DNA of 45,560 bases from positions 1 through 45,560 of the IMG/VR virus record IMGVR_UViG_3300026280_000004. The stretch is one strand, 5' to 3'. This document shows, piece by piece, positions 19,294 through 35,525 of the stretch. Each line of letters opens with the position of its first letter. Within the stretch, counting starts at the first letter, position 1. The position numbers and the translations under genes were made by a program. Origin of the DNA: a virus. The notes under the pieces were generated by a model. It made no database searches. It was not told where the DNA came from and saw only the letters and a program-made list of their open reading frames with translations.

Positions 19294-22200
19294 TTATCTT
19301 CTAATATCAGTAATTAAAATATCATTTGTATTAAATTTATCTACTAATTTTGGAATGTACATTCCATTTTTTGTATTCTTTTCGAAAACTATATGTTTAT
19401 TTTCTACTATAGCTCTTATTACTAATTTAGAAAATTTATATAGGTCATTATCTTCTTGAATAGTTAATAAATCTCTTAGTCTAGCTAAATTAAAAGAAAA
19501 ACCATTTCTTAAAGCAAAAGATCTAAAATCTTCTCCTAATTCTTTGCTATTTAGTAATCCTTTTATAGTATAAAACTCATTTTCAGTCATATCTTTCATA
19601 GAAATATTTGAAAACTCAAATTTTCCTATACTTTTTTGATCTATAAAAGATATATCATTGCTAAATAATTTTGTTATAAAATGAGTTTTTTGTTTAATTG
19701 CTATACCAAACATGCCATTACCTGGAACTGTATGAGTAAAATAAGTAGAAATATTTAAAGCAAAAGTTACAAATTCAGAATTAGCTTTTTTATTAGGAAG
19801 AAATACATTAAATAATCTTTTTACAATAAAGTTATCTTCTATTGAAATATTCTTTTCAGAAGAAAATATAGAAGCTATAGAATTAGCTAAATAATAGAGG
19901 TAGATAGGATTATTTTTCAATATGTTATTATTAGAAGGATCTAATAATCCTAATTCTAAAGCTAATAAAATTAAAGCATTTGGTATATCTATAGTAGTTA
20001 ATCCTATTACTTTCCATCTTTGTAAAATAGTAGGTATAATAGAAGAAAGTATTTTTACACTTTTTGAACTAGTTGCATTCTCTACTATTTGTTCAATAAG
20101 AGATATGGTATCGCTAGAAAGATCTTTATTAGCTCCAGCACCTATCTGCATCAAAATTGCATAAAATTCTCTACTTATTATAGAAGGAACTTCAACTTTT
20201 TCTGGTTCATACGTTTCTTCTGTACCAGCTATTTCTTGAGCTGTTTCATCAGAAACTACTTCAGCTTCAAATTCTTTATCTTTATGAGAAATAGTTTTAG
20301 TAATATCTTCTACTCCTATAACAGATAACATTCTATATAAGTCTTTATTCTTAACAAATAATGAGAAGAAAGAATTTATTTGGACAGAATGAAATGTTTT
20401 ATTGAATGTTCTATATACAGATTCATAATATAAAAATTTCTTATCTAAATTTTCTAGACTTTCTGTATACTCATTAGAAGTAGCCAAATTTTGTAAAGTA
20501 TTTCTAAAATCTTTATCATTTTCAGGAATACCTAAATAATGTAAAATAAAATCTAAAACTCTAGGATTAACCTCTCCATTCTCAATTGATCTTCTTAGTA
20601 AGAAGATAAGATAGTGTAAAAATATTATATAAAATTCTTTTTTTACTAAGTTAACAATTTTTCCTGTAGAATAAAATTCTACAACAAAAGGATTGTTCTC
20701 GTTTTTGAGTTTTTCTATAATAGAAGCTTTGTAAAAGTCTTTATATTTATTTAGAACCTCATCAAGATCTTTTCCTTCAAAAGAAGCTACTTTGATGTAT
20801 TCAGCATTTTTGAATATAGAATAATAAATATTAGCTAAGAATTTTTTGAGAAGTAAAGTAATAAAATTATCATCAATTAGGCTATTGCGTAAATCTCTAT
20901 TAAGATTTTTATAATCTATACGATTTCCTTCTAAAGAAGAATTTAATAAAGAAAGTAAAGATTTCATTGATTGCTTAGAAAATTGAGAATTTAATTTTCT
21001 TTCAAAGTATCCATTAAACATATTTTGAAGAATTAAATAAGTTAAATTTGGTTTATATATTACTTCTTTTCTTCTAGTAACATGTATAGGATCAAACTGA
21101 GAAAGAAATTGTTGTATTACAGAATCTCTAAATAAAGAGAATATATAATTTCTTTCTGGAATTACTATATCTGAAGCAAAAGTTCTAGAGTCTAAATTAG
21201 GACTCAAATAAAATACAATTTTTTTATTTAAGATTTTTTTGAGAATTTCTAAATAAAATTTAGCTGTATCATAATTAATTGTATATTTGTCTAAAATTCT
21301 TTCTAAATTTTTAGTTTCTTCTGTATCCTTAGCAGAAGAGATTTTTTTTCTTAAATATTTAGAAATCATACTAAAATTTGAATCTAAAATTTTATCTAAA
21401 AGAGATATATTTAAATTTCCATCCTTATCTATTATATTAGAATTAGAAAAATAACGAAGTTCTTGAGAAGCTGCATCCTTAATATTTTCTGATTTAAAAA
21501 AATAAAAGAATTTTGAATCAGTGCTTAATTTTGTAGAAATAGAATAAGCTAAATATTTATCTTCTTTAAGAATTTTTGAAAAATTTAGTTGAATATTTAC
21601 TACTAACCTCTTAGCCTCTTCATCTTTATCCTTAGGCTTAAAGAAATCTTCTCCTAATAAGAATTTCTTTATAGCTATAGCTAATATTTCATTAAAAAGT
21701 TCAGCTTTAGAGTTTATTTTTTCTATAAAAAAATTAGCTTTATCCTTTATAAATTTATCATAACCTTTGATATTAATATCTAAAAGTTCTCCTAAATTTG
21801 TAATACCTAAATGGTCTTTATAAAAAGAAGAATTTGATATAACTAAGTATTCAAATTTTGAAATTAAATTACCAAATTCTTCTAAAGCTCTTCTTTCTAT
21901 AAATTCTTTTAAATTTCTTTCTTCTTCTGTTTCTACCTCATCTGAAGACATTTGATCTACTTCTTCTATTTTAGCAGCTGATTTAGAAGCACCTATTTTT
22001 ACTTTAACATTACTAAAATTTTCAGTACGTACTGTTGATTCAAAACTATTATAAGATTTTACTAAAGTATCTTCAAATGAACTAAAATTCTCTATTACTT
22101 CTAGGAATTCTAAAAGATAAATTTCCAAATACTGAAAAATTCTAAAAGATTTAAGGTAATAAACATTACTAGAAACAGACTTATAAATCTCAAAAAGTTT

Positions 22201-24990
22201 TTGATCTTCTTCATTTTTAGAGTTTTTAAGTTTTCTAGCTTTTAATGTAATATAATTGTTCAAATGCTTATTTATAAATAGAAATGTATCTCTTAAAGCT
22301 TTTGTGGTACATACGAACATTTTAGAAGTCGTAGGTGTTAAATTTTCAGTTACAGCAAAATAAACAGCCTCATTATAAAGATCTTTATTTTTTCTAATTA
22401 AATTAATAATTTCAAAAGCAATAGGATATTTTTTCTCAAGAATAGAATTAGTAGCTAAATAATTTAAGTAATTTCTAGCAACTGCTAATATTAATCTAGT
22501 CATATCATCTGAAGAAAGTGATTCTACTTTATTAGAAGCTAAATCTAAATAGAATCTTAATTTCTTTAAGAATTTTATTACAGGATCTTCTTTAGGTTTT
22601 TCTGTAGGATTCTCTATAAATTTCTTTATATTTTCTTCTGTAGGAAAGAGATTAAGTAAATCTATTATGAATTTTTTTATAGAGTCTTCAAATATATGAT
22701 TTAGAATTTGTTCTAAAGATTCTGAATCAGAACTAGATAATTTATTAGAAGCTAAAGATAATATCTTAATATAAATATTTTTTACCTCTTCATCAAGAAC
22801 TTTAAAGTCTTTCTGGTTTAAATTATTTTTTAATAAGTCTAAAAATTTTGGATTGTTTAATTGCTCAAATAATTCTCTCTCACTTATTTTTAAATCAGAA
22901 GGCCTAATACTAGATTTTCTTTCATATACGAAAAACGAATTTTTAAAAAATTCTAAAAGCTTATTACGTACTTCTGGATCTGAAAAATAATCTTTTAGAA
23001 CTTCTGTAATCTCATTTATTAAATATGTATGATTTTGTTTATCTCTTAAAGAATTCTCAGCAGCCTTATTCAATAATTCTTCAATAGCCTTAAAATTAAC
23101 TTGTAAAATATTGTTTTCCTTTTGTATAAATTTTAAAAGATTTAAAAATATAGGACTAATAAAAGCTATTTTAAAAGCTTTTATATATGTATCTATTATG
23201 TTATAAAGTTTTTTTACTAAAAGGTCTACTCTTTCAAAAAGATTATCTGAAAAAGATATATCCAAATTTCTAAATTCTGAAATAGAATCTTTTATATTTA
23301 AGAGAAATTCAGAAAAATTTGGATCATTGATTAAAGAATCTATTCTTTTTAAATTAAGAGAAATAAGGTCTTCTAATTTTTCTTCATCAAATTCATTATT
23401 ATTAAAAGCAGCTACAATAAAGCCTTCAACAATATCTTCTATTTCTTTAGAAGAAATATTAGTAGTTTCAAAATGAACAGAAATGTTCTTTATGAGAATA
23501 TCTTTAAGTTCTTCTAGTCGTTTTTTTGATCTTACTGATTTGGTAAAAGGTTTAAATAATAGACTAAAATTTAAAGCTAATTCTATTAGAGGAACAGAAT
23601 ATTGTAAAGCAAAAATTATTTCTTCCTTAAAAACATTTACGACTATAGTTTGTCCTTTAGTAGATTTTCTTGTTTCACTTTTAGATTGATCTTCTTTTTC
23701 TAAAAATTTCTTTATAGCAGTTTTATTTTTAGAAAGTTGTTCTTTAATTTTTTTCTTAAGCTCATTTATAACTTCTAATTTTACTTCTAAAGGATTTGAA
23801 GATTTTTCAAAAATTAAAAGAGGGTTTGAAGGAATTCTTTTAGAGTCGGTTTCTTTAGTAAAAGGATATTCTAATTTTTTAGATATATAGGATTCTACAT
23901 CAAAAATATTAGAAGATTTCTTTAAAATAGATTCCAAATAATCTAAAGAAGATAAAGCTAAATTATGTAATAAATACATGTGATACCTAAAAAGTCTAGG
24001 TCCTGAAGTACTATCTTCATAAATATTTTTACCAACTAAAGACCTAATAGTAGAATTATATTTGTATTCTAATTCATAAAATTGTTGATTATCCTTGATT
24101 CCAGAATATAAAGATTCTATTTTAGGAATATCCTCTCTAAAATCATAAAGAAGAAATTTCTTTAAGTTAGAAATATAAGATACAGAAGATAATGGAGTGT
24201 CTTCAGAAGTAGGAGCTTTTATATCTAATTTCCTTAAGAATTTTTTCAAATTAAAAACTAAAACTTTAAAAAAGAAAGAAGAATCTTCTATTTCTAATTT
24301 TTTTACTGGATCTTCATCTGTAGTAGCAAAATATTGAAGTATGATACCTAATTTTAGTAGAGCTAAAGAAAAAATAGAATCTGGTATATGTAAGTATCTT
24401 CTTTTAGATATTAATTTAGAAGCATCTAAGTCATCAAACTTGTCATCATCAGAACTAATCTTTTCCATTGTTAATGGATTTATAAATTTTTCTTCTAATT
24501 CTTTAATATAATCTCTATTTTCAGATATAGTTTCATTTTTAATTTTATTATAAGCTTCAAGTACATCTTCTGTAGGAATAGTTTTGTAATAATTTTCTTT
24601 TATGCTAGTACTTAAATTTAATACTATTTGTTCTTTTTTGGTTTCAGTTTCAGAAATGTCTTTAGATAAAGAATTTATTGCTGTATGTAATACTACACCT
24701 TCTATCTTAGATATAAGAGTATTTTCTAATTGAGAAAATTTTTCGTATGGAATTAGAGATCCTGCTAAATAAAATGCATAATAAGGAACTGATGAAGATA
24801 AAAATTTCTCATTGCTTAAATTTAATTTTTCTTGTAGATTTGTAGTTAATAAAGATGATAAAAGAGATTTTTGAACAATTACTTCTTCAGAAGAAATTTC
24901 TGATATTCTGTTAATTACTTCAGAATCTTGCAAGTCTAAATTATGGACTAAATTTAAAAGATTTTTAGGCAAATACAGTCTACTTTTCAT
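19294..24990 (-). CDS. Giant unknown protein, 1898 residues
   Basis: This is by far the largest gene in the window, and I do not recognise it. The sequence is overwhelmingly alpha-helical, rich in Lys, Leu, Ile, Asn, Ser and Phe, with no signal peptide, membrane span, Walker motif, Cys cluster or RNA polymerase DxDGD-like motif. Acidic linkers near residues 172-190 (SSDDDKFDDLDAS), 1003-1025 (EEVDQMSSDEVETEEERN) and 1570-1595 (VVSDETAQEIAGTEETYEPE) suggest at least three globular blocks. It has only a weak AAGGG site, with TATAAT 31 bases upstream. It lies between the polymerase and the sigma-like gene. Possible roles include a virion-packaged ejection protein or a host-takeover scaffold; both are speculation. 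Confidence 0.85.
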   Translation of the reverse strand: MKSRLYLPKNLLNLVHNLDLQDSEVINRISEISSEEVIVQKSLLSSLLTTNLQEKLNLSNEKFLSSSVPYYAFYLAGSLIPYEKFSQLENTLISKIEGVVLHTAINSLSKDISETETKKEQIVLNLSTSIKENYYKTIPTEDVLEAYNKIKNETISENRDYIKELEEKFINPLTMEKISSDDDKFDDLDASKLISKRRYLHIPDSIFSLALLKLGIILQYFATTDEDPVKKLEIEDSSFFFKVLVFNLKKFLRKLDIKAPTSEDTPLSSVSYISNLKKFLLYDFREDIPKIESLYSGIKDNQQFYELEYKYNSTIRSLVGKNIYEDSTSGPRLFRYHMYLLHNLALSSLDYLESILKKSSNIFDVESYISKKLEYPFTKETDSKRIPSNPLLIFEKSSNPLEVKLEVINELKKKIKEQLSKNKTAIKKFLEKEDQSKSETRKSTKGQTIVVNVFKEEIIFALQYSVPLIELALNFSLLFKPFTKSVRSKKRLEELKDILIKNISVHFETTNISSKEIEDIVEGFIVAAFNNNEFDEEKLEDLISLNLKRIDSLINDPNFSEFLLNIKDSISEFRNLDISFSDNLFERVDLLVKKLYNIIDTYIKAFKIAFISPIFLNLLKFIQKENNILQVNFKAIEELLNKAAENSLRDKQNHTYLINEITEVLKDYFSDPEVRNKLLEFFKNSFFVYERKSSIRPSDLKISERELFEQLNNPKFLDLLKNNLNQKDFKVLDEEVKNIYIKILSLASNKLSSSDSESLEQILNHIFEDSIKKFIIDLLNLFPTEENIKKFIENPTEKPKEDPVIKFLKKLRFYLDLASNKVESLSSDDMTRLILAVARNYLNYLATNSILEKKYPIAFEIINLIRKNKDLYNEAVYFAVTENLTPTTSKMFVCTTKALRDTFLFINKHLNNYITLKARKLKNSKNEEDQKLFEIYKSVSSNVYYLKSFRIFQYLEIYLLEFLEVIENFSSFEDTLVKSYNSFESTVRTENFSNVKVKIGASKSAAKIEEVDQMSSDEVETEEERNLKEFIERRALEEFGNLISKFEYLVISNSSFYKDHLGITNLGELLDINIKGYDKFIKDKANFFIEKINSKAELFNEILAIAIKKFLLGEDFFKPKDKDEEAKRLVVNIQLNFSKILKEDKYLAYSISTKLSTDSKFFYFFKSENIKDAASQELRYFSNSNIIDKDGNLNISLLDKILDSNFSMISKYLRKKISSAKDTEETKNLERILDKYTINYDTAKFYLEILKKILNKKIVFYLSPNLDSRTFASDIVIPERNYIFSLFRDSVIQQFLSQFDPIHVTRRKEVIYKPNLTYLILQNMFNGYFERKLNSQFSKQSMKSLLSLLNSSLEGNRIDYKNLNRDLRNSLIDDNFITLLLKKFLANIYYSIFKNAEYIKVASFEGKDLDEVLNKYKDFYKASIIEKLKNENNPFVVEFYSTGKIVNLVKKEFYIIFLHYLIFLLRRSIENGEVNPRVLDFILHYLGIPENDKDFRNTLQNLATSNEYTESLENLDKKFLYYESVYRTFNKTFHSVQINSFFSLFVKNKDLYRMLSVIGVEDITKTISHKDKEFEAEVVSDETAQEIAGTEETYEPEKVEVPSIISREFYAILMQIGAGANKDLSSDTISLIEQIVENATSSKSVKILSSIIPTILQRWKVIGLTTIDIPNALILLALELGLLDPSNNNILKNNPIYLYYLANSIASIFSSEKNISIEDNFIVKRLFNVFLPNKKANSEFVTFALNISTYFTHTVPGNGMFGIAIKQKTHFITKLFSNDISFIDQKSIGKFEFSNISMKDMTENEFYTIKGLLNSKELGEDFRSFALRNGFSFNLARLRDLLTIQEDNDLYKFSKLVIRAIVENKHIVFEKNTKNGMYIPKLVDKFNTNDILITDIRR

Positions 24991-25033: not shown

Positions 25034-27679
25034 TTATTCGTAACTAATGATATTAGGCATATTCTTTTCAAAAAAGCCTAAGTCTTCTTCAGAAAGACCT
25101 TTCTTAGCTGAACATTTTAAAGGTAAGTCTATTTTTGGTTCTATATAATGATTAATATTAGTCATATATTCTTTAATAATTTCTAAATCTTGTTCATAAT
25201 CTTCTCTATAAAAGTCAAATAAGATAGAGTCATGAACTGACAATAAAGCTTTAGACCTTCTTAGAGAATTATATATATTGATAAAAGCTAAAATGGTAAT
25301 ATTAGAGGCAGAAGATTGTACTGGAAAATTTATGCAAGTTCTTATTAAAGAAGGCTTATCTAAATATTTAGATAAAGAATGTTTTAAGCTTCTCATGTAA
25401 AGTCTTTTTCCTAATAAAGAATAGATAGGAATACCATTAGTTGCATCTAATTCTATCTTTTTCATATAGCTATAAATTTCTGGAAAGGTATCATAATAAT
25501 TTTCTAAAATTTGTTGAGCTTCTTCTTTAGAAATTCCTGTTACACCCATTACTGCTTTATAAGAACCTCCATATTGAGCAGTAAATGAAACATTCTTACA
25601 TAATCCTCTAAATTTAGCAAATTCAGGAACTCCCTCTAATTTAGCTTTTTGATAAAATTCTTCATAAGTTATTTCACCTTTTAGCTTATTCCAAAGCTTA
25701 TAACCAAAATAAGAGTGAATATCCATTCCATCTCTTAAAACTTGATATAAAGGTCCTTCTCCAACTATATGAGCTAATATTAAAATTTCCATAGAATCAA
25801 AGTCTATTTCTAATAAAAATCCATCTTTTCCAAATCTAGAAGTATAAATTTTTCTATAGTCTTTATATTTAGGAAGTCCTAAGAAATTCACACTTCCTCT
25901 TAAAGAGTTAGCAGAAGCCATTCTTCCTGAAATTGTTTTAAATAAAGAAGTAGCTACATATACGTATCCATCTTCATAAGTAGTTAATAGTCCTTTATCT
26001 AACTTAGTATAGATTTTTTTATCAAAAATATCTATCCTTTGTAATAAATCTATTAATTTTTCAGAATCTATATTAGATTCTTTATAAAAGAGAGAATATA
26101 TATCAGAAATAGACAAATGGCTAAGTAGAGTTAATAATCTATTCCTTTTAGCTAAATATTTAGCAAAAGGTAAGTTTAATGTTTTTTCATATTGTTCTAA
26201 AGTATCTGAATTTATTAAGATTTGAGAAGTTTTTTCTGAAAATTTTAGTTTATCTTTTATTTCAGGATATCTACTTAATATAGCTTCAGTTAATTGTTTA
26301 GCTGATCTAAAGTTTATTTCTCCTAATTCTTTATATAAATTTTCATCTAACCATTTTAGGTATTTAGCTAATTCAATAGAAAAAGATCTATAATAATCTG
26401 TATCTATTTTTATACCTTCTCTTTCTATTGAAGGAATAGTTTTTACGCAAGGTATATAGAAATTCTTATAATGTTTTTCCACATTTTTATCTTCTGATAT
26501 TTCTTTTTTAAGAGAAGACCAAATTTGAAAAGTAATCGCTGCATCATAAGCAGCATATTGTCTAAAAGTCTCATAATCTATATCTCCAAAAGAAGATTTT
26601 TCTTCTAATTCTTCTTTTAAATCTCTTTCATATCCTCCATAATAGGTATAAAAATAAGCTAATGTTTTTAAGGAATATCTAAAATTAGGTTCTAAAGAAT
26701 ACTTAGCTAATAAAGTATCTCCTTCTACTTCAAAATTTCCTTTTTCAAAAAATTCTTTTTCTAATAAGAATTTAATATCAAAGAATCCATTATGAAATAT
26801 AAATCTTTTAGATTTAAGAAATCTTTTTATAGCCTCTTTGCTTACTTTAGTATTTTTTAAATACAAAAAATAAGCTTTATGAGGATAATCTGAAAATTGG
26901 ATAGACAAAATTTCTCCATCTTTAAAATTTAAAGATGTAGTTTCTATATCTAATGAAAATACTTCTCTATTTGAATCATTTGTTATTTCATCTAGCTGTT
27001 CATCTGAAGTAATATCTATTATTTTAATTAATTTTTCAGATTCTACTCTTTCTACAATATGCATTTGATTATGAACATAAGTTAAAGCTGAAAATAAAAC
27101 TTTTCTAAAAAATCTATTTAAAAAATGTTCTTCTTCTTTTTCTAAAAAGAATAAAGGTTCTTCCATAAGAAAAACTCTAGTTTTAAGTTCAGTCCACCAA
27201 AAAGAGAAATTTCTTAAATTAGAATAATCAGATAAAGCTATATGGTCTTTAAAAGATACTCCTAATATTTTGCTAGAAAATAAAGATGTAGCTATAATAG
27301 TTTTAATATTTAATTTTTGTAAAATCTTAAAAGTATTAATAGAGAAACATTTTGATTGTATTGTACTACTTATTCCTTTTAAGGAAAATTTAGTAGGAGT
27401 ACAGCCTAAATAAGGAATAATCAAAATAGATTTTCCTTTAGCTATAAAGGTTTTTTCTACTTCCTTAAATAGCTTTAAAATAAATTCAGAAAAAATCTCT
27501 TTAGGATAATAATATCCTAAAAGTAAAACTATATCAATTTCTTTATTAAGCAAATTTTCTTCTCTAATTACTGAGAAATTCTTAGAACCTAAATCTTTTA
27601 TATAAAAGAACCCATTCTCAACAGTATATCTCATCATTGCTTTTGAATGAATAGCACATTTACAATTAGGCATCTCCAT
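25034..27679 (-). CDS. Family A DNA polymerase with a UDG-like N-terminal domain
   Basis: I chose the ATG at 27679 (881 residues), nine bases after AGGAGG; a TTG three codons earlier is less likely. Residues about 235-395 are a 3'-5' exonuclease: SLDIETT (Asp244, Glu246), FHNGFFDIKF (Asn297, Asp301) and YAAYD (Tyr375, Asp379). The polymerase domain has motif A EIDFDSMEILILAH (Asp626, Glu631), motif B RGLCKNVSFTAQYGG (Arg691, Lys695, Tyr703), FPVQSSASN, and motif C SVHDS (His816, Asp817). The first 200 residues resemble a family 4 uracil-DNA glycosylase with four Cys (6, 8, 93, 111) but no catalytic HPS. The 3' end of the ThyX gene overlaps its start. This is the main replicative polymerase. 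Confidence 0.93.
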   Translation of the reverse strand: MEMPNCKCAIHSKAMMRYTVENGFFYIKDLGSKNFSVIREENLLNKEIDIVLLLGYYYPKEIFSEFILKLFKEVEKTFIAKGKSILIIPYLGCTPTKFSLKGISSTIQSKCFSINTFKILQKLNIKTIIATSLFSSKILGVSFKDHIALSDYSNLRNFSFWWTELKTRVFLMEEPLFFLEKEEEHFLNRFFRKVLFSALTYVHNQMHIVERVESEKLIKIIDITSDEQLDEITNDSNREVFSLDIETTSLNFKDGEILSIQFSDYPHKAYFLYLKNTKVSKEAIKRFLKSKRFIFHNGFFDIKFLLEKEFFEKGNFEVEGDTLLAKYSLEPNFRYSLKTLAYFYTYYGGYERDLKEELEEKSSFGDIDYETFRQYAAYDAAITFQIWSSLKKEISEDKNVEKHYKNFYIPCVKTIPSIEREGIKIDTDYYRSFSIELAKYLKWLDENLYKELGEINFRSAKQLTEAILSRYPEIKDKLKFSEKTSQILINSDTLEQYEKTLNLPFAKYLAKRNRLLTLLSHLSISDIYSLFYKESNIDSEKLIDLLQRIDIFDKKIYTKLDKGLLTTYEDGYVYVATSLFKTISGRMASANSLRGSVNFLGLPKYKDYRKIYTSRFGKDGFLLEIDFDSMEILILAHIVGEGPLYQVLRDGMDIHSYFGYKLWNKLKGEITYEEFYQKAKLEGVPEFAKFRGLCKNVSFTAQYGGSYKAVMGVTGISKEEAQQILENYYDTFPEIYSYMKKIELDATNGIPIYSLLGKRLYMRSLKHSLSKYLDKPSLIRTCINFPVQSSASNITILAFINIYNSLRRSKALLSVHDSILFDFYREDYEQDLEIIKEYMTNINHYIEPKIDLPLKCSAKKGLSEEDLGFFEKNMPNIISYE

Positions 27680-28613
27680 ATTTTTCAACCTCCTTACTCA
27701 TTTTTTCAACTAAATCTCTGATATTTGGATCAGCATATTGACTTAATCTTTGTTCTTTTATACAATTAAATTGATATTCAGTACAAGTATATACTAAAAC
27801 TGTATCTGTATCTTGTAGCAAATAACCTGATAAAAATCCTCTTAAAGTTTTTTTTTCTAAAAGATCTTTAGTTTTATAAGAATTTAATATATGATTATAA
27901 GCATATAAGCTTAAATTATGTACAATATTAAGTAGAATTTTATCTAAAGGATTAAGCTTTATAGGCATAGCCTCATTTACTAATTTTGATTCTCCTTTAG
28001 AGACATATCTAGTAGATTCTTGACTTACACAATATTCAGTATTATGTCTTAATAATTCTAAAGAAGTTCTTCTAGAAGTTTGTATAAAAAAAGAATAAAT
28101 ATTCTCTAAAAAATTATAAGGTTCAATTACAGAATATTTATCAGGTATGATTTCTAATAATTTATTGTATTTAGCCTCTATTCCAAATTCTTTATAAGCT
28201 AAAGCTAAATCTCTAGTTACTTCACTTATAGTATCATTTTCTAAATCTTCTATTAAATGTCTTAAGCTAAGAATAACATAAAAATTCTTATTAGGATCTT
28301 GTCTTAAATAAGTTCGTTTATGAACGCTTATATAATTTAAAAAATTTTTCATATTTTTAATTCTGAAAAATTTCATCCAATGGCCAAAGATAGAATAATG
28401 CTTAGATTCTATAATATGTTTAAAATATTCTACAGTAGGCCTATTTTTAGAATTAGGTCTTCCAGAATTATAACATATTCTTCCAGCAAATTCTACTAAA
28501 GAAACCATAGGAGAAAAGGAAGAAAGGACCTTATCTTCATAAGGTCCATAAATAGAATCAAAATCTTTTAAAAGATTTTGATTTTTTACAAGGAGATGTA
28601 CTTTATTTTTCAT
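27666..28613 (-). CDS. thyX: Flavin-dependent thymidylate synthase (ThyX), variant motif
   Basis: ThyX makes dTMP from dUMP with FAD, NADPH and methylene-tetrahydrofolate. Support: RICYNS near residue 45, KHYSIFGHWMKFFRI (71-85), the signature-like LLRHNTEYCVSQESTRYVS (187-205) and C-terminal EQRLSQYADPNIRDLVEKM (287-305), matching the ThyX R-x-x-x-A-Q/E block. The classical RHRX7S reads RHNX8S here, and about 90 residues are inserted between the His block and the signature, explaining the length of 315 versus the usual 220-250. AAAGGAG precedes the ATG. dCMP deaminase in the same region could supply dUMP. Family is fairly sure; unaltered activity is not. Confidence 0.8.
   Translation of the reverse strand: MKNKVHLLVKNQNLLKDFDSIYGPYEDKVLSSFSPMVSLVEFAGRICYNSGRPNSKNRPTVEYFKHIIESKHYSIFGHWMKFFRIKNMKNFLNYISVHKRTYLRQDPNKNFYVILSLRHLIEDLENDTISEVTRDLALAYKEFGIEAKYNKLLEIIPDKYSVIEPYNFLENIYSFFIQTSRRTSLELLRHNTEYCVSQESTRYVSKGESKLVNEAMPIKLNPLDKILLNIVHNLSLYAYNHILNSYKTKDLLEKKTLRGFLSGYLLQDTDTVLVYTCTEYQFNCIKEQRLSQYADPNIRDLVEKMSKEVEKYGDA
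28526..28547 (-). promoter_or_regulatory. Perfect 9-bp hairpin early in thyX
   Basis: On the minus strand GGACCTTAT pairs with ATAAGGTCC across a GAAG tetraloop, at about +67 to +88 of thyX. Such a GC-containing perfect stem is unusual here. There is no T tract, so it is not a simple terminator. It might attenuate translation or mark an mRNA processing site. Confidence 0.3.
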
Positions 28614-29583: not shown

Positions 29584-30285
29584 TTATTTGATAAGTTGAA
29601 TATCATATATATCAAAAAACTTTATTTTTTTATAGAATTTTTTATTTATATTAGAAGCTATTTCAATATACCTATCATATAATTCTGGATTATTAGAGTA
29701 TACTTTTTTATAATTTTTAGGCAATAGTAGTAAAAAATAAGATCTTTCTAAGCTAAAAATTTGGCTTATTTCCACTAAATAATCTTCTATTTTATATTCT
29801 GGATGATATACAAATTGAGAAATAAAAAATCTATCTAGTAAGAGAGTATGTCCTTCTACCATTCCATAATTATTATAGAATTCTATAAAAAGCTCTAAAT
29901 TATATTTGAAGAAAGAAGAATCATATCTTGTAGGATCTTTTCTATTTAGTCTAACAGGTAAAAAATAATTTTTTTTATTTAAAGCTTCTAAATTTTTTAG
30001 AATAGTACTTTTTCCTACTTTATTAGGTCCATCTACAAATAGATACTTTATATTTTTAGATACAATTAAATTATTTAGCAAAATAGGAATGTCTTCGAAA
30101 TCTATTTTATTTTTTAAAAAAAATTTATATCTATCAAATTCTAAATAGCCTTTTTCTATATAAGGAACTTTTTCTAAAAAAAGAATTTTTGGAGGAAATA
30201 GGCTTAGATTGTCTAATAATAAATATAAAAAAGCTTTTTCCGAAATTGATGGGTCGACTTCTCTATAGTAAATTGTGTATTCCAT
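29584..30285 (-). CDS. Deoxynucleoside monophosphate kinase (thymidylate kinase-like)
   Basis: A P-loop GPNKVGKS lies at residues 86-93 after the strand YLFVD, and LLLDRFFIS with Asp151-Arg152 matches the DRY/DRF motif of thymidylate and dNMP kinases. These enzymes convert dNMPs to dNDPs. The first 80 residues are an extra domain of unknown function. T4 gp1 phosphorylates hydroxymethyl-dCMP, and the overlapping upstream genes for a dCMP hydroxymethylase-like enzyme and a glycosyltransferase suggest the same substrate here. AGGAGG precedes the ATG. Substrate is inferred; ordinary dTMP kinase activity is the main alternative. Confidence 0.65.
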   Translation of the reverse strand: MEYTIYYREVDPSISEKAFLYLLLDNLSLFPPKILFLEKVPYIEKGYLEFDRYKFFLKNKIDFEDIPILLNNLIVSKNIKYLFVDGPNKVGKSTILKNLEALNKKNYFLPVRLNRKDPTRYDSSFFKYNLELFIEFYNNYGMVEGHTLLLDRFFISQFVYHPEYKIEDYLVEISQIFSLERSYFLLLLPKNYKKVYSNNPELYDRYIEIASNINKKFYKKIKFFDIYDIQLIK

Positions 30286-30292
30286 ATATTTT

Positions 30293-31003
30293 TTAACCTC
30301 CTAAAATTAATGATAACCATTCTTTTTTATTTTTAATATAATGTATACCACAAAAATATTTTTTAGCAAATTTTACTAAATCTTCTGTAGGTTCATTAAG
30401 ACCTAAAAATAATTTATCAGAAATATTCTTAGCTGAATGCTCAAAGAAAAATTCTGAAATAGACCATTGATCGAAGAAATGTATTTCTTTTTCTAATATA
30501 AGAGGTCTATCGAAAAATTCTTTAATTTTTTTATTAAAAATCTCATTTTGAACAAATTCTTTAGCTTTCTTAAAATATTCTTTAGAGTAAATAGAAAATC
30601 CAAAATTAAAGCAATTAAATACTTTAAAAACTTTAGAGAAAGTATTTCTACTAAAAGGATCTCTTACAGCTGCTAATTCATATTCTTTTAAATCAAATCC
30701 TCTAAAGAAATAAATATCATCATCAGAAATTATAATTCTATCGTAATGTTCAATAATCTTATTGATTTCTTCATGAATCATTAGAACTAATTTAAAAGTA
30801 CTAGGATGGAAATAGCTTACATAAAATTTATGTTCTAAATCTAAATCATCAAAATAAAGTATAGTATCTTCTGAATAGTAAGATTTTTCAGTAGGCCCTT
30901 CTATTCTATATATATCTAAATTAGGAAAACTTCTTTTAAAGGATTCTTTAGTTATAGGGTAAAAATCTATATATCCATTTAAAATAAAAACACAAGCTTT
31001 CAT
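30293..31003 (-). CDS. GT8-like glycosyltransferase, candidate DNA-base glycosyltransferase
   Basis: The 236-residue protein follows the GT-A family 8 pattern: IIISDDDIYF with the metal-binding DxD at residues 94-96, YELAAVRDP near 108-116, FNFGFSIYS (132-140, the FNxG motif), FFDQW with DQ at 178-179, and GIHYIKNKKEW (219-229) as the final His and Lys-Trp block. GT8 enzymes move a sugar from a UDP-sugar. Its ATG overlaps the TGA of the hydroxymethylase-like gene, and the kinase follows eight bases later. That suggests the acceptor is hydroxymethylcytosine in DNA, as for T4 glucosyltransferases, which belong to other families. Glycosylation of a virion or host surface is the alternative. Confidence 0.6.
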   Translation of the reverse strand: MKACVFILNGYIDFYPITKESFKRSFPNLDIYRIEGPTEKSYYSEDTILYFDDLDLEHKFYVSYFHPSTFKLVLMIHEEINKIIEHYDRIIISDDDIYFFRGFDLKEYELAAVRDPFSRNTFSKVFKVFNCFNFGFSIYSKEYFKKAKEFVQNEIFNKKIKEFFDRPLILEKEIHFFDQWSISEFFFEHSAKNISDKLFLGLNEPTEDLVKFAKKYFCGIHYIKNKKEWLSLILGG

Positions 31004-31680
31004 TTTAAACCTCCTTTTATTTCAAAATAAATCTCTTCTAATTTTTTAAAGTCTTTTTCATAAACATGAAGATTGGTAACAATCCAAGTTAAATTTCCAG
31101 TTTTAGCTTTAGGAAAATTCTTTAATACTTTTTCAAATAACAAAGAAGCCCATATAAAATCATAAAAAAATCCAAATATTAAATCATTAGATCTCATATA
31201 AATTGTAGCATTTAAGAAATTATCTAAAGTAAAATAAAATTGCATAGCGATAGTACATACCATATCTATAGATTCTCCATTTTGTATAATACCTAAATTT
31301 TCTATAGAACCATAATAAATTATAGCTCTAGTAGTAAACATATCATTTTGTAATTCCTTAATTACATTAGGTAATTGTTTTAAAGCTTTTTCACCGTAAT
31401 TTGAAAATATTTTTCCTCCATCAAAATACTCTTTCCATATTTTATATTTTTTAATTCTTTTAGTATTTTCTTCATTAGGATTCAAATACCAATTCAATTC
31501 ATCTATCAAATATTGTATACTTAAAGGTCTGCTTTTATAGGTTTTTATAACTCCTGGTTTTAGGACAATTATAGGATTAAACAAGCATTTGCACTTTACT
31601 CCTCTTTTTGATAGGAAATAACCTTTTTCGTACATTTGAATAAAAACTTCATCTAAATTATTATAAACTGTAGGTGTCAT
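31000..31680 (-). CDS. ThyA-family enzyme with dCMP-type specificity, putative dCMP hydroxymethylase
   Basis: The 226-residue chain matches the thymidylate synthase fold: LIDELNWYL (58-66), TTRAIIYYG (116-124), nucleophile region VCTIAMQFYF (Cys142, Gln147), RSNDLIFG (Arg163, Ser164, Asp166, Gly170) and LHVYEKD (His205, Tyr207). The position that is Asn177 in E. coli TS, which recognises uracil, is Asp174 here (FFYDF). Asp at this site is known in T4 dCMP hydroxymethylase, and the Asn-to-Asp mutation in TS shifts it towards dCMP. Pro-Cys-His is Val-Cys-Thr. Size is near T4 gp42 (246). With ThyX present, a second TS is not needed. It overlaps dCMP deaminase and the glycosyltransferase. Confidence 0.7.
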   Translation of the reverse strand: MTPTVYNNLDEVFIQMYEKGYFLSKRGVKCKCLFNPIIVLKPGVIKTYKSRPLSIQYLIDELNWYLNPNEENTKRIKKYKIWKEYFDGGKIFSNYGEKALKQLPNVIKELQNDMFTTRAIIYYGSIENLGIIQNGESIDMVCTIAMQFYFTLDNFLNATIYMRSNDLIFGFFYDFIWASLLFEKVLKNFPKAKTGNLTWIVTNLHVYEKDFKKLEEIYFEIKGGLK

Positions 31681-32131
31681 GTGTATTTACCTCCTTTAAA
31701 TTTATTAGTTCTACATTAGCTTTTTTAAAAAGATTTTCTGAGTTTCCTCTGTAATCTTCTAAATATAAAACAGCAGAAATTCCTGCTCTAATAATTAATC
31801 CTGAACAGTATAAGCAAGGTTTAGTTACAGTTAATAGAACACATCCTTCTGTTCTTATACCAAATCTTGCAGCTGAAGCTATTAAATTAGCTTCAGCATG
31901 AGTACATATTCCATAATCTATAGAAGATTTATCTTTTAACATACATCTTTCACATTCTTCAGGATTAGACTTAGAAGGAGGAGAATTCCATCCCTCTAAG
32001 ATTATAGTATTTTCTTTTATTAAAATACATCCTGTTTTTCTAGATAAGCATTCAGAATTATTAGATACTGCATATACTACTTTTAGAAAATAATCAAGCA
32101 ATTTAGGCTTAATATATTTTTCTAAACTCAT
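31661..32131 (-). CDS. dCMP deaminase
   Basis: This zinc enzyme turns dCMP into dUMP, the substrate of ThyX. The HAE motif (His78, Glu80, in CTHAEANLIASAA) and PCLYC (Cys106, Cys109) form the catalytic zinc site. Extra cysteines in ECERCM (Cys60, Cys63) and Cys76 resemble the second, structural zinc site of T4 dCMP deaminase. Length of 156 is usual for the family. Its 3' end overlaps the hydroxymethylase-like gene by 20 bases. Both use dCMP, so this cassette would split dCMP between dTMP supply and base modification. The start lacks a strong ribosome binding site beyond AGGCC. Confidence 0.88.
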   Translation of the reverse strand: MSLEKYIKPKLLDYFLKVVYAVSNNSECLSRKTGCILIKENTIILEGWNSPPSKSNPEECERCMLKDKSSIDYGICTHAEANLIASAARFGIRTEGCVLLTVTKPCLYCSGLIIRAGISAVLYLEDYRGNSENLFKKANVELINLKEVNTHDTYSL

Positions 32132-32132
32132 A

Positions 32133-32678
32133 TTAGGCCTCCAAGCTTTTTAAGAATTTATTCCATTCTTCAGGATGTTGAACAAACCATAAAGGACATA
32201 GCTTTCCTGTAATATCATGATGTCTTATGATTGGTATATTTCCATATATAAATCTTAAATAGAGTAATAATCTTCTTAAGCCTTCTAAAGATTCATTAGT
32301 AAATTTTCCTGTAGCATCAGGATGACATACTTCTATTCCTATTGAATATAGATTAGGATCTATATATCCTTTTGGAGTTGTAAATAATTTTTTAGCTAAA
32401 TCTGTATAAGATCTTCCACCTCCATGCCAAGATACTTCTTCTTTAGGAATTATTTCATAAATATCTCCATTAAGATCTATTATATAATTAGAAGAGGCTG
32501 CAGGATATTTATCATTAGAATCTCCTATAATTCTAAACCAATTTCTAACTATTTTAGCAGTATGACCAGGTCCTCCTGTATAATGAACTACTAAAGCTCT
32601 AGTTTCAGGTCTTTTTATTCCTGGTCTACTTTTTCTTCTAATTGGTAAATGGTCTTCTATTATTTTTAGTTCAAGCAT
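32133..32678 (-). CDS. N-acetylmuramoyl-L-alanine amidase, T7 lysozyme type (endolysin)
   Basis: I start it at the ATG at 32678, which follows AAAGGAGG; an earlier start would lie further inside the dUTPase gene. The protein is 181 residues and resembles the amidase_2 family: VVHYTGG with zinc ligand His32, YEIIPKEEVSWHGGG (74-88), SIGIEVCHP (112-120) and IRHHDITGKLCP with His153, Lys159 and Cys161, matching His122, Lys128 and Cys130 of T7 lysozyme. It cuts the amide bond between sugar and peptide in peptidoglycan. There is no signal peptide, so a holin would be needed; none is recognised nearby. The stop of dUTPase overlaps by eight bases. Confidence 0.9.
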   Translation of the reverse strand: MLELKIIEDHLPIRRKSRPGIKRPETRALVVHYTGGPGHTAKIVRNWFRIIGDSNDKYPAASSNYIIDLNGDIYEIIPKEEVSWHGGGRSYTDLAKKLFTTPKGYIDPNLYSIGIEVCHPDATGKFTNESLEGLRRLLLYLRFIYGNIPIIRHHDITGKLCPLWFVQHPEEWNKFLKSLEA

Positions 32679-33177
32679 AAGAAACCTCCTTTTTATCTGA
32701 ACTTCCAAATCCTCCTCCTCTATCTTCTAAATCAGAAGGATATTGATCTAATTCAGTTATTTGAATTTTAGGAACTGGTAATAATAGGAATTGAGCTATT
32801 TTTTGGCCAAATTCTAGAACTAATGGTTCATTTTTAATATAGAAAAAATGTAAATGTATTTCACCTCTATAAGCTTCATCTATTACACAAGCTCCTATAT
32901 CTAATCCAATTTTAGAAGATACAGAACTTCTATTAAAAGCTACTAAGCAATAACCTTGAGGAATAATAGATTTGATTCCTGAAGGAATTAAAATATTATT
33001 AGTATCTTGAAAAACAATAGAATTTCCTTCTACATAAACTCTTTTATTTTTAGCTCTTAAATCCTCTATAAAAGATTCTTCTTTTTCTGGTATAAAAAAA
33101 TCTATACCAGCATCACTTTCTACATTTTTTCTAGGTAACTTCACATTTCTTACTTTATAAAATTTTACTTCAAGCAT
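32671..33177 (-). CDS. dut: dUTPase
   Basis: dUTPase hydrolyses dUTP to dUMP, keeping uracil out of DNA and feeding thymidylate synthesis. All five trimeric dUTPase motifs are visible: DAGIDFFIP (22-30), NRSS (82-85), GACVIDEAYRGEI (95-107), FGQKIAQFLLLP (123-134) and RGGGFGSS (153-160). AGGAGG precedes the ATG. It fits with ThyX, dCMP deaminase and the uracil-DNA glycosylase as a uracil-control set. Confidence 0.94.
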   Translation of the reverse strand: MLEVKFYKVRNVKLPRKNVESDAGIDFFIPEKEESFIEDLRAKNKRVYVEGNSIVFQDTNNILIPSGIKSIIPQGYCLVAFNRSSVSSKIGLDIGACVIDEAYRGEIHLHFFYIKNEPLVLEFGQKIAQFLLLPVPKIQITELDQYPSDLEDRGGGFGSSDKKEVSYA

Positions 33178-33186
33178 TTTTCCTCC

Positions 33187-34359
33187 TTACTTAGAATGTT
33201 TTTGAATAATTAAATCTAATACTTCTGCAGCTTTTTCTAAAGAAGATTTTTCATAAATATTTTTTCTCATCCAATTTATTAAGTTTTGATCTTTTTGAGA
33301 ATTTAAACAATCATAAATTTTATTAGCTAAATCTTCTTCATCTATTTCAAAAGATCCAGATTTTAGATTTACAAAGAATGGATAATCTTCAGGAGCTCTT
33401 TTAGCATATTCAAATACTTTAGGCATAATAGGATAAGCTCCTGCATAAATTGCTTCTGTATTAGCACATCCTCCATATAGCTCATATAAAAATAAATTAA
33501 TTACACAATAGGCTTTTTTCAAAATATATAAATATTCTTCTCTAGATAGAAGATTTGTAGGAATATAATTCTTAAACATAGATTTAAAATCTTCTTTAGT
33601 ATAGTATTTGCCGCTAGGATTAGCTATGAATAGATTAAATTTAAAGTCAGGATATTTAGATTCTATAATTTGAATTGCTTTAGCAAATTTTTCAAAATTA
33701 GTATAATCAGGTTTAGAGATTCTATTAGGAAAAAATACTATAGGTAAAGATTCATCATATTGATATTTAAAATTAAATTTATTCGCATCAAAAGAATCTA
33801 TTTCAAAAGCTGAAAATCCTACATCTAAAATATAGGTAGGTTTATTTTCTAAGATCTCTCTAGTAGTTTTAGGAGCATTCTGAATAAAATCTTCTCTAAT
33901 ACTTTCTGTAGTAAAGGTTAGAATATCTGAACTTATAGCTCCTTCTAATTGTTTAGGATATAAAGAAGCTCCTTGAGTTTTAGGATATGTAGGAGTATCT
34001 ATAAAATAATTAGCATACATTAATGGTACATCATAATAGATAGTTTTTATTTCTTTGGCTTTTTCAGGAATATTGTTTTGTATAAAATCATAATCCATTT
34101 TAGGAATAGAATTTATACCTACCTTAAATCTAGCCTCATAAGTATTTAGAGGATAATCCCATTGATATACATATCCATATTTTTCAAATTGAGTATGGTA
34201 TCCATCTGTTAATTTAGGAAGTACATGAACCCATTTATATTTAGAACCTATTTTTCTAAGCATTCCTAGTTGAACACCAATTCCAGAATCTCTATGAGAA
34301 TAAACTTTTCTCTCATAATCAATTACTGAAGGTTGTAATATAGTTAATATTTTTTTCAT
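33187..34359 (-). CDS. GT-B fold glycosyltransferase (GT4-like)
   Basis: I start at the ATG at 34359, six bases after AGGAGGT, giving 390 residues; a TTG eight codons earlier is less likely. The N-terminal half has glycine-rich loops (HRDSGIGVQLGML). The C-terminal half shows IVFFPNRISKPDYTNFEKFA as the nucleotide-sugar domain start and ELYGGCANTEAIYAGAYPIM as the E-x-G-x-x-x-x-EA motif of GT4-type enzymes. Donor and acceptor are unknown. Because it lies near base-modification genes, it might add a sugar to modified DNA, but virion protein or host surface glycan modification is equally possible. Confidence 0.7.
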   Translation of the reverse strand: MKKILTILQPSVIDYERKVYSHRDSGIGVQLGMLRKIGSKYKWVHVLPKLTDGYHTQFEKYGYVYQWDYPLNTYEARFKVGINSIPKMDYDFIQNNIPEKAKEIKTIYYDVPLMYANYFIDTPTYPKTQGASLYPKQLEGAISSDILTFTTESIREDFIQNAPKTTREILENKPTYILDVGFSAFEIDSFDANKFNFKYQYDESLPIVFFPNRISKPDYTNFEKFAKAIQIIESKYPDFKFNLFIANPSGKYYTKEDFKSMFKNYIPTNLLSREEYLYILKKAYCVINLFLYELYGGCANTEAIYAGAYPIMPKVFEYAKRAPEDYPFFVNLKSGSFEIDEEDLANKIYDCLNSQKDQNLINWMRKNIYEKSSLEKAAEVLDLIIQKHSK

Positions 34360-34880: not shown

Positions 34881-35525
34881 TTAAAAAAAAGTTCCATCTG
34901 GAAGAGGTTTTACTTCTATATTATAAATAGGAACCATATTTTCAGGATGAGCTTTATTTTTATATAAAAAATCTTCTAATTTTTCAGAATCATACATATA
35001 GTCAATAGACTCATAATTGTACCTATAATAGCTAGGATGATGTAAAATCAAAGTAGGTTTTAAAAATTCAGCTACTCTATAATGTTTAGAAGCAGATTCA
35101 GAAAAAACTACTACTACTTTAGGCTTAACTATTTTTATTTGATCTATTAAATAATCTTTACAATTTAAAAAATGTTTTTCTTTAAAGCTTATATTTCTAG
35201 GCTTTCTACATTTAATTAAATTAGTAAAAAAGATATATTGTTCTACAAATTCTTTACTAAAAAAGATTTTAGTCAGAAAAGAACCAAACTTTGAAGTAAG
35301 AAAAGTATCTAAGTATCTTTGATAAAATTCTTCTTGAGGTTCTTCTTTTTGATTATATTCATCTTTTACCCATTCTAATCCTGGATTTAGGCCTACTACA
35401 AATATTTGAGGATTTTTAGACTTATACCAACAAGGCATACTATTCGGAGTAACTCTTCTTAGAATAGGACACTTATTACATAAATGAATTTGTTTGGAAA
35501 TTATTTTTAAAACCTCTTCATTCAT
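34881..35525 (-). CDS. Uracil-DNA glycosylase, family 4/5-like
   Basis: This enzyme removes uracil from DNA. Four cysteines for an Fe-S cluster are at 16, 19, 106 and 122 (LCNKCP; NLIKCRKP; FLNCKDYL), with the family 4 spacing of 15 residues between the last two. The catalytic-site motif VVGLNPGLEW (43-52) and the C-terminal LHHPSYYR (161-168) are intact. AGGAGG supports the start. It is unusual in phages to have a UDG beside dUTPase; it may repair deaminated cytosine. If the DNA carries modified cytosine, it could also discriminate against foreign DNA, which is speculation. Confidence 0.85.
   Translation of the reverse strand: MNEEVLKIISKQIHLCNKCPILRRVTPNSMPCWYKSKNPQIFVVGLNPGLEWVKDEYNQKEEPQEEFYQRYLDTFLTSKFGSFLTKIFFSKEFVEQYIFFTNLIKCRKPRNISFKEKHFLNCKDYLIDQIKIVKPKVVVVFSESASKHYRVAEFLKPTLILHHPSYYRYNYESIDYMYDSEKLEDFLYKNKAHPENMVPIYNIEVKPLPDGTFF

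Follow-up and report, generated by a model that had tools for sequence, protein, structure and literature searches.

The window analysed here, a linear virus fragment of 45,560 nt (IMGVR_UViG_3300026280_000004), carries four tightly packed genes on its minus strand at positions 29584-32131. In the order of transcription, they encode a dCMP deaminase (31661-32131), a ThyA-family protein (31000-31680), a GT8-like protein (30293-31003) and a kinase (29584-30285). An earlier note on this DNA had listed these genes in this sequence, giving overlaps of 20 and 4 bases followed by a gap of 7, and this layout is borne out in every detail. The four open reading frames are not chance stretches, since their lengths of 156-236 codons exceed the longest open stretch found in 500 shuffles of the same 2.5 kb (136 codons) and a GGAG(G)-type ribosome-binding site lies upstream of each of them.

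The ThyA-family protein (226 aa) is very probably a dCMP hydroxymethylase (HMase) of the T4 gp42 type. It matches PF00303 above the cut-off (1.7e-16) with its catalytic Cys142 aligned, and its top match among solved structures in the PDB is T4 dCMP hydroxymethylase (1b49, 1.5e-14), with all thymidylate synthases ranking lower. We aligned it with 77 viral relatives, T4 and Aeromonas gp42, E. coli ThyA, SPO1 gp29 and a Yuavirus ThyA homolog. The dCMP-type Asp that the earlier note had read in this protein is confirmed by the alignment, in which D174 in RSNDLIFGFFYD falls in the column of the T4 gp42 Asp and of Asn177 in E. coli ThyA. This column holds Asp in 77/77 viral relatives as well as in T4, and Asn in E. 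coli ThyA, SPO1 gp29 and the Yuavirus protein. An association study has described E. coli ThyA positions 147 and 177 as separating the homologs of cytosine-modified contigs from ordinary ones, the modified-type residue at position 177 being Asp (PMC8670742); the window protein has Thr143 and Asp174 at these two positions. In a tree that contains no dCMP methylase (the Xp12 enzyme is absent), it joins the gp42 clade with a support of 88/87, on a long branch and apart from E. coli ThyA and the dUMP hydroxymethylases.

A reservation on this assignment comes from that long branch and from the phosphate region, where Thr117 (31330-31332) occupies a position that is Arg in all the other aligned sequences, E. 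coli ThyA included. Of the Arg pair contributed by the partner subunit (R126/R127 in E. coli, Thr117-Arg118 here), the first Arg, which is not known to be needed for product type, is thus lost and the second retained. Both features would favour an inactive or dUMP-using protein engaged in ordinary nucleotide metabolism of a phage with unmodified DNA. However, the remaining catalytic positions are all retained, Asp174 included, and the enzyme is not needed for dTMP because a separate ThyX is present, making this explanation very improbable. We give about as little credence to a dCMP methylase activity of the ThyA homolog, yielding 5-methylcytosine as in phage Xp12. The Asn-to-Asp change by itself makes a thymidylate synthase a dCMP methylase (PMC8670742), and sequence gives no certain readout of the water-versus-hydride step; however, the protein groups with T4 and Aeromonas gp42, it has the SNYG motif that is common to the 77 viral relatives and missing from E. 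coli ThyA, and a hydroxyl as sugar acceptor suits its transferase-like neighbours. Separately, we noticed that gp60 of Microbacterium phage BelmontSKP (L009:4007-4912), annotated as thymidylate synthase, carries the dCMP-type Asp in spite of clustering with E. coli ThyA and having no SNYG, and may be a methylase or hydroxymethylase acting on dCMP.

The dCMP deaminase (156 aa; PF00383 7.7e-17, phrog_174 3.8e-33) would feed dUMP to the ThyX thymidylate synthase (27666-28613, minus strand, 315 aa; PF02511 4.9e-16, TIGR02170 3.2e-14). Together with a dUTPase (32671-33177, minus strand, 168 aa; PF00692 4.1e-14, phrog_135 5.3e-29), these enzymes would run the dTMP supply separately from the ThyA homolog. 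Such companions are found elsewhere, with a dCMP deaminase within 1 kb in 70/168 HMase loci and dUTPase genes in several other HMase loci. No dCTPase was found in this 45,560-nt fragment, and the replacement of cytosine may be partial. An endolysin/amidase gene (32133-32708; phrog_9611 5.5e-21) sits between the deaminase and dUTPase genes, inside the nucleotide-modification block.

The last cassette gene encodes a TMK-like P-loop kinase (233 aa) that is extended at its N-terminus by about 78 residues and has only a weak family match (phrog_761, thymidylate kinase, 3.5e-6). A homolog (1.3e-6) lies within a kinase-transferase-HMase operon of another IMG/VR contig, L126, and TMK-like ORFs adjoin HMases in four more distinct loci. 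We infer from this company that the window kinase would be a hydroxymethyl-dCMP kinase. The proposal of a T4-like hydroxymethyl-dCMP pathway, also made in the earlier note, is supported by the position of the ThyA homolog in the tree, on the side of the dCMP hydroxymethylases, by the deaminase and TMK-like kinase alongside it and by the separate ThyX. At one locus where a TMK-like kinase adjoins an HMase (L026:2258-6708), an ORF farther upstream resembles UDP-galactopyranose mutase by eye, which, if the likeness holds, would suggest a galactofuranose-type donor there.

The GT8-like ORF (236 aa) owes its label to the landmarks SDDD, FNFG, DQ and HYIKNKKEW, which follow one another in GT8 order and spacing. 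Scored for DxD, NxG, DQ and H-x-K-P-W, it reaches 12/16, with the Pro of KPW and the Asn after DQ missing; this score was attained by 3/5000 shuffles and by 0/176 real ORFs. Moderate evidence thus points to a GT-A/GT8-like enzyme, falling short of family membership. Nothing in Pfam, NCBIfam or PHROG matches the ORF and nothing in the PDB does so meaningfully, the GT8 profile PF01501 finds no match in the window at E <= 10, and custom-built GT8 profiles do not place the ORF above shuffles. Searches for relatives among viral contigs, GTDB contigs, phages and 398 genomes returned nothing or chance matches. An apparent link to an ORF of Rhizobium phage N34 (L010:5621-6259) was rejected, the N34 protein being dNMP-kinase-like. 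Single-sequence structure prediction gave unusable models for this protein and for the GT-B-like protein described below (pLDDT 35 and 34). Support for the GT8 label is thus weak, with four collinear landmarks on one side and failure in every profile test on the other.

Since no relative was found, it is operon position alone that ties the GT8-like ORF to DNA modification. The earlier note had gone further and made it the DNA glycosyltransferase of this phage, acting on hydroxymethylcytosine (hmC) in place of the T4 glucosyltransferase families. Its location between the HMase and kinase genes, with a 4-bp overlap with the former, and its collinear landmarks would agree with a role as sole DNA glycosyltransferase. 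However, it lacks a GT8 profile match, no GT8 occurs within 1 kb of 168 HMases, no homolog of the ORF stands beside any other HMase, and a better-linked transferase-like gene is found 1.5 kb away. The substitution is thus not supported as stated, and we consider a sole GT8-like transferase quite unlikely. The protein might contribute a second sugar-transfer step to the pathway, or might use another substrate altogether.

The better-linked gene (33187-34359, minus strand), which lies outside 29584-32131 and was not listed in the earlier note, encodes a GT-B-like glycosyltransferase candidate of 390 aa and starts with an ATG preceded by AGGAGG. The sole distant relatives found are in L131 (1.4e-30) and L126 (1.9e-27), at 31-32% identity, where the gene is directly upstream of the HMase gene, overlapping it by 4 bp and the kinase gene by a few bp. 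Both contigs were chosen for containing an HMase, and the association is thus partly ascertained. Despite this we take it to be real, because the overlapping adjacency is seen in both loci and the family has no match in phage records, plasmids and 398 genomes, except for one short chance match.

The GT-B label itself is a motif-level judgement. The ORF has no secure family profile match, and neither of the GT4 profiles PF13692 and PF00534 matches the family. Its C-terminal region, which is conserved (ELYGGC....E, PKVFEY), looks by eye like the half of GT-B enzymes that binds the donor. When compared as a single sequence with T4 alpha-GT, it gave an hhalign E of 0.0025 at the C-terminal region, above 150 shuffles; this weak similarity was lost with the 3-sequence profile, and in a control 2/100 unrelated-looking real ORFs came near the score of the GT-B-like ORF or proved to be its own copy. 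A match of the GT-B-like profile to SelB in the PDB (E 0.008) was judged to be chance. Taken together, the sequence and its neighbourhoods make this ORF the best candidate for sugar transfer to hmC.

It is conceivable that hmC in this phage is unglycosylated or otherwise decorated, and that the targets of both transferase-like proteins are glycans of the cell surface or proteins of the virion. Neither of them has a secure glycosyltransferase profile match, and in Bacteroides phage BF486P2 an HMase is paired with a carbamoyltransferase. We regard this as unlikely, given that in L126 and L131 the GT-B-like and HMase genes overlap and that T4-type glycosyltransferases occupy comparable positions in many other HMase loci. 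Homologs of T4 alpha-GT lie within 1 kb in 18/168 HMase loci and homologs of beta-GT in 11/168, with HMase-locus clusters 5 and 12 matching T4 alpha-GT at 1e-119 and beta-GT at 1e-108.

The hmC transferases of phages come from unrelated families, alpha-GT and beta-GT being GT-B and TAGT being GT-A enzymes, with at least two independent recruitments reported (PMC13216743). Arabinosylation is seen in RB69 (PMC6024577) and a pentose in Thanatos (PMC12838424), adding to this diversity. In the T4 pathway of gp42, gp1 kinase, alpha-GT and beta-GT, the window has its counterparts in a gp42-type enzyme with the Asp, a dCMP deaminase, a dNMP kinase and a transferase-like gene near the HMase. It differs from T4 in having a TMK-like kinase, ThyX rather than a ThyA-type synthase for dTMP, a UDG-superfamily gene and a probable hot-spring habitat, and its transferases fall outside the T4 families by profile. 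L126 and L131 share with the window homologous UDG-superfamily, kinase, GT-B-like and HMase genes. There, the overlapping kinase/transferase/HMase operons have the same order, each preceded by the UDG-superfamily gene, whereas the window has them in a different arrangement, interspersed with dUTPase, amidase and GT8-like genes; L126 and L131 additionally carry an epimerase and other sugar genes.

Two further systems share parts of this set. Bacillus phage G (gp306-gp319) has a kinase and a UDG-like domain, a dCMP deaminase, a D-type ThyA homolog and transferases. Its gp315 (L188:8928-9923) is a kinase domain (3e-11) fused to a UDG-like domain (3e-11), and is encoded two genes before the dCMP deaminase, four before the D-type ThyA homolog and near two alpha-GT homologs. 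Phage G thus differs from the window in joining kinase and UDG in one protein and in having the two alpha-GT homologs instead of the GT-B-like family. In the hmC carbamoyltransferase clusters, a dCMP deaminase co-occurs with a D-type HMase (PMC8670742). These clusters, including that of Bacteroides phage BF486P2, where a dUTPase adjoins, resemble the window in the D-type HMase but decorate the base with a carbamoyltransferase rather than a sugar transferase. Within 6 kb, the BF486P2 locus (L004:9644-15672) combines the carbamoyltransferase with two divergent ThyA paralogs of the D type, suggesting carbamoylated hmC in that phage.

The virus is best read as a thermophilic myovirus. Its gene set includes topoisomerase II, UvsX/RecA, SbcC, a primase, DnaB, a family A polymerase, a tail tube and a sheath, and the G+C content of the window is 24.7%. 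The sole near relative found is IMGVR_UViG_3300002493_000006, whose matched proteins are 99% identical; the sequence compared runs from the late genes through the dUTPase, with the four-gene cassette outside it. Metagenome 3300002493 represents the undermat of Mushroom Spring, Yellowstone, at 60 C at the time of sampling (PMC6338057). A hot-spring origin of the window itself would follow from this 99%-identical relative, and an IVYWREL-based temperature estimate for the window proteins (66 C) agrees with it. The family A DNA polymerase gene (25034-27688, minus strand; PF00476 1e-41, phrog_17 3.2e-73) is directly followed downstream by an ORF of 1898 residues (19294-24990) without any PHROG match.

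From the gene identities, active-site residues, tree position and conserved neighbourhoods that the sequence provides, we favour, with a probability of roughly 0.6, a thermophilic myovirus with glycosylated hmC, in which the GT-B-like protein adds the sugar in a divergent version of the T4 system. The gp42-like enzyme would convert dCMP to 5-hydroxymethyl-dCMP, which the nearby TMK-like kinase would phosphorylate for incorporation at replication by a polymerase that would need to accept the modified nucleotide. The GT-B-like protein would then add a sugar to the hydroxymethyl group. The most likely purpose of such a modification would be shielding from host nucleases. Glycosylated cytosine is among the best-studied phage shields against restriction and CRISPR, and the characterised DNA glycosyltransferases belong to few families. 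A hot-spring member with transferases outside the known profiles would add new, possibly heat-stable enzymes.

A UDG-superfamily protein of 214 aa (34881-35525, minus strand) with GLNPGLE and HPSY motifs is also encoded in the window. It matches PF03167 above the cut-off (2.9e-14) with motifs A and B present; its top NCBIfam match, type-4 UDG (1.1e-15), is below the cut-off of that model. Orthologs lie upstream of the kinase gene in L126 (5043-5606) and L131 (5550-6146), and motif A among the UDG-fold proteins of the module reads G[LR]NPGLE. Among the HMase loci covered, just a few have a UDG-superfamily gene nearby. At the corresponding motif A site, TDG/MUG and SMUG enzymes carry Asn, and some of them act on 5-substituted uracils. 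Because deamination of hmC gives hmU, a repair role is a natural hypothesis, the more so at 60 C; alternatively, the protein may act on nucleotides. By its neighbourhoods, it belongs to the kinase/transferase/HMase module. We would only tentatively propose, as a combination less likely than not, that hmC genomes have a dedicated partner in the UDG-fold protein, for example a glycosylase removing hmU, and that the GT-B-like proteins of the window, L126 and L131 form a new family of hmC-DNA glycosyltransferases. If so, the kinase/transferase/HMase/UDG module would by itself suffice both to make and to proofread a modified genome. The UDG-fold gene in the module, fused to the kinase in phage G, poses the question of how the deamination product of a modified base is handled. 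The N-terminus of the window polymerase was tested for a UDG-like domain and none was found; the DNA polymerase of SPO1 begins with one (2e-8).
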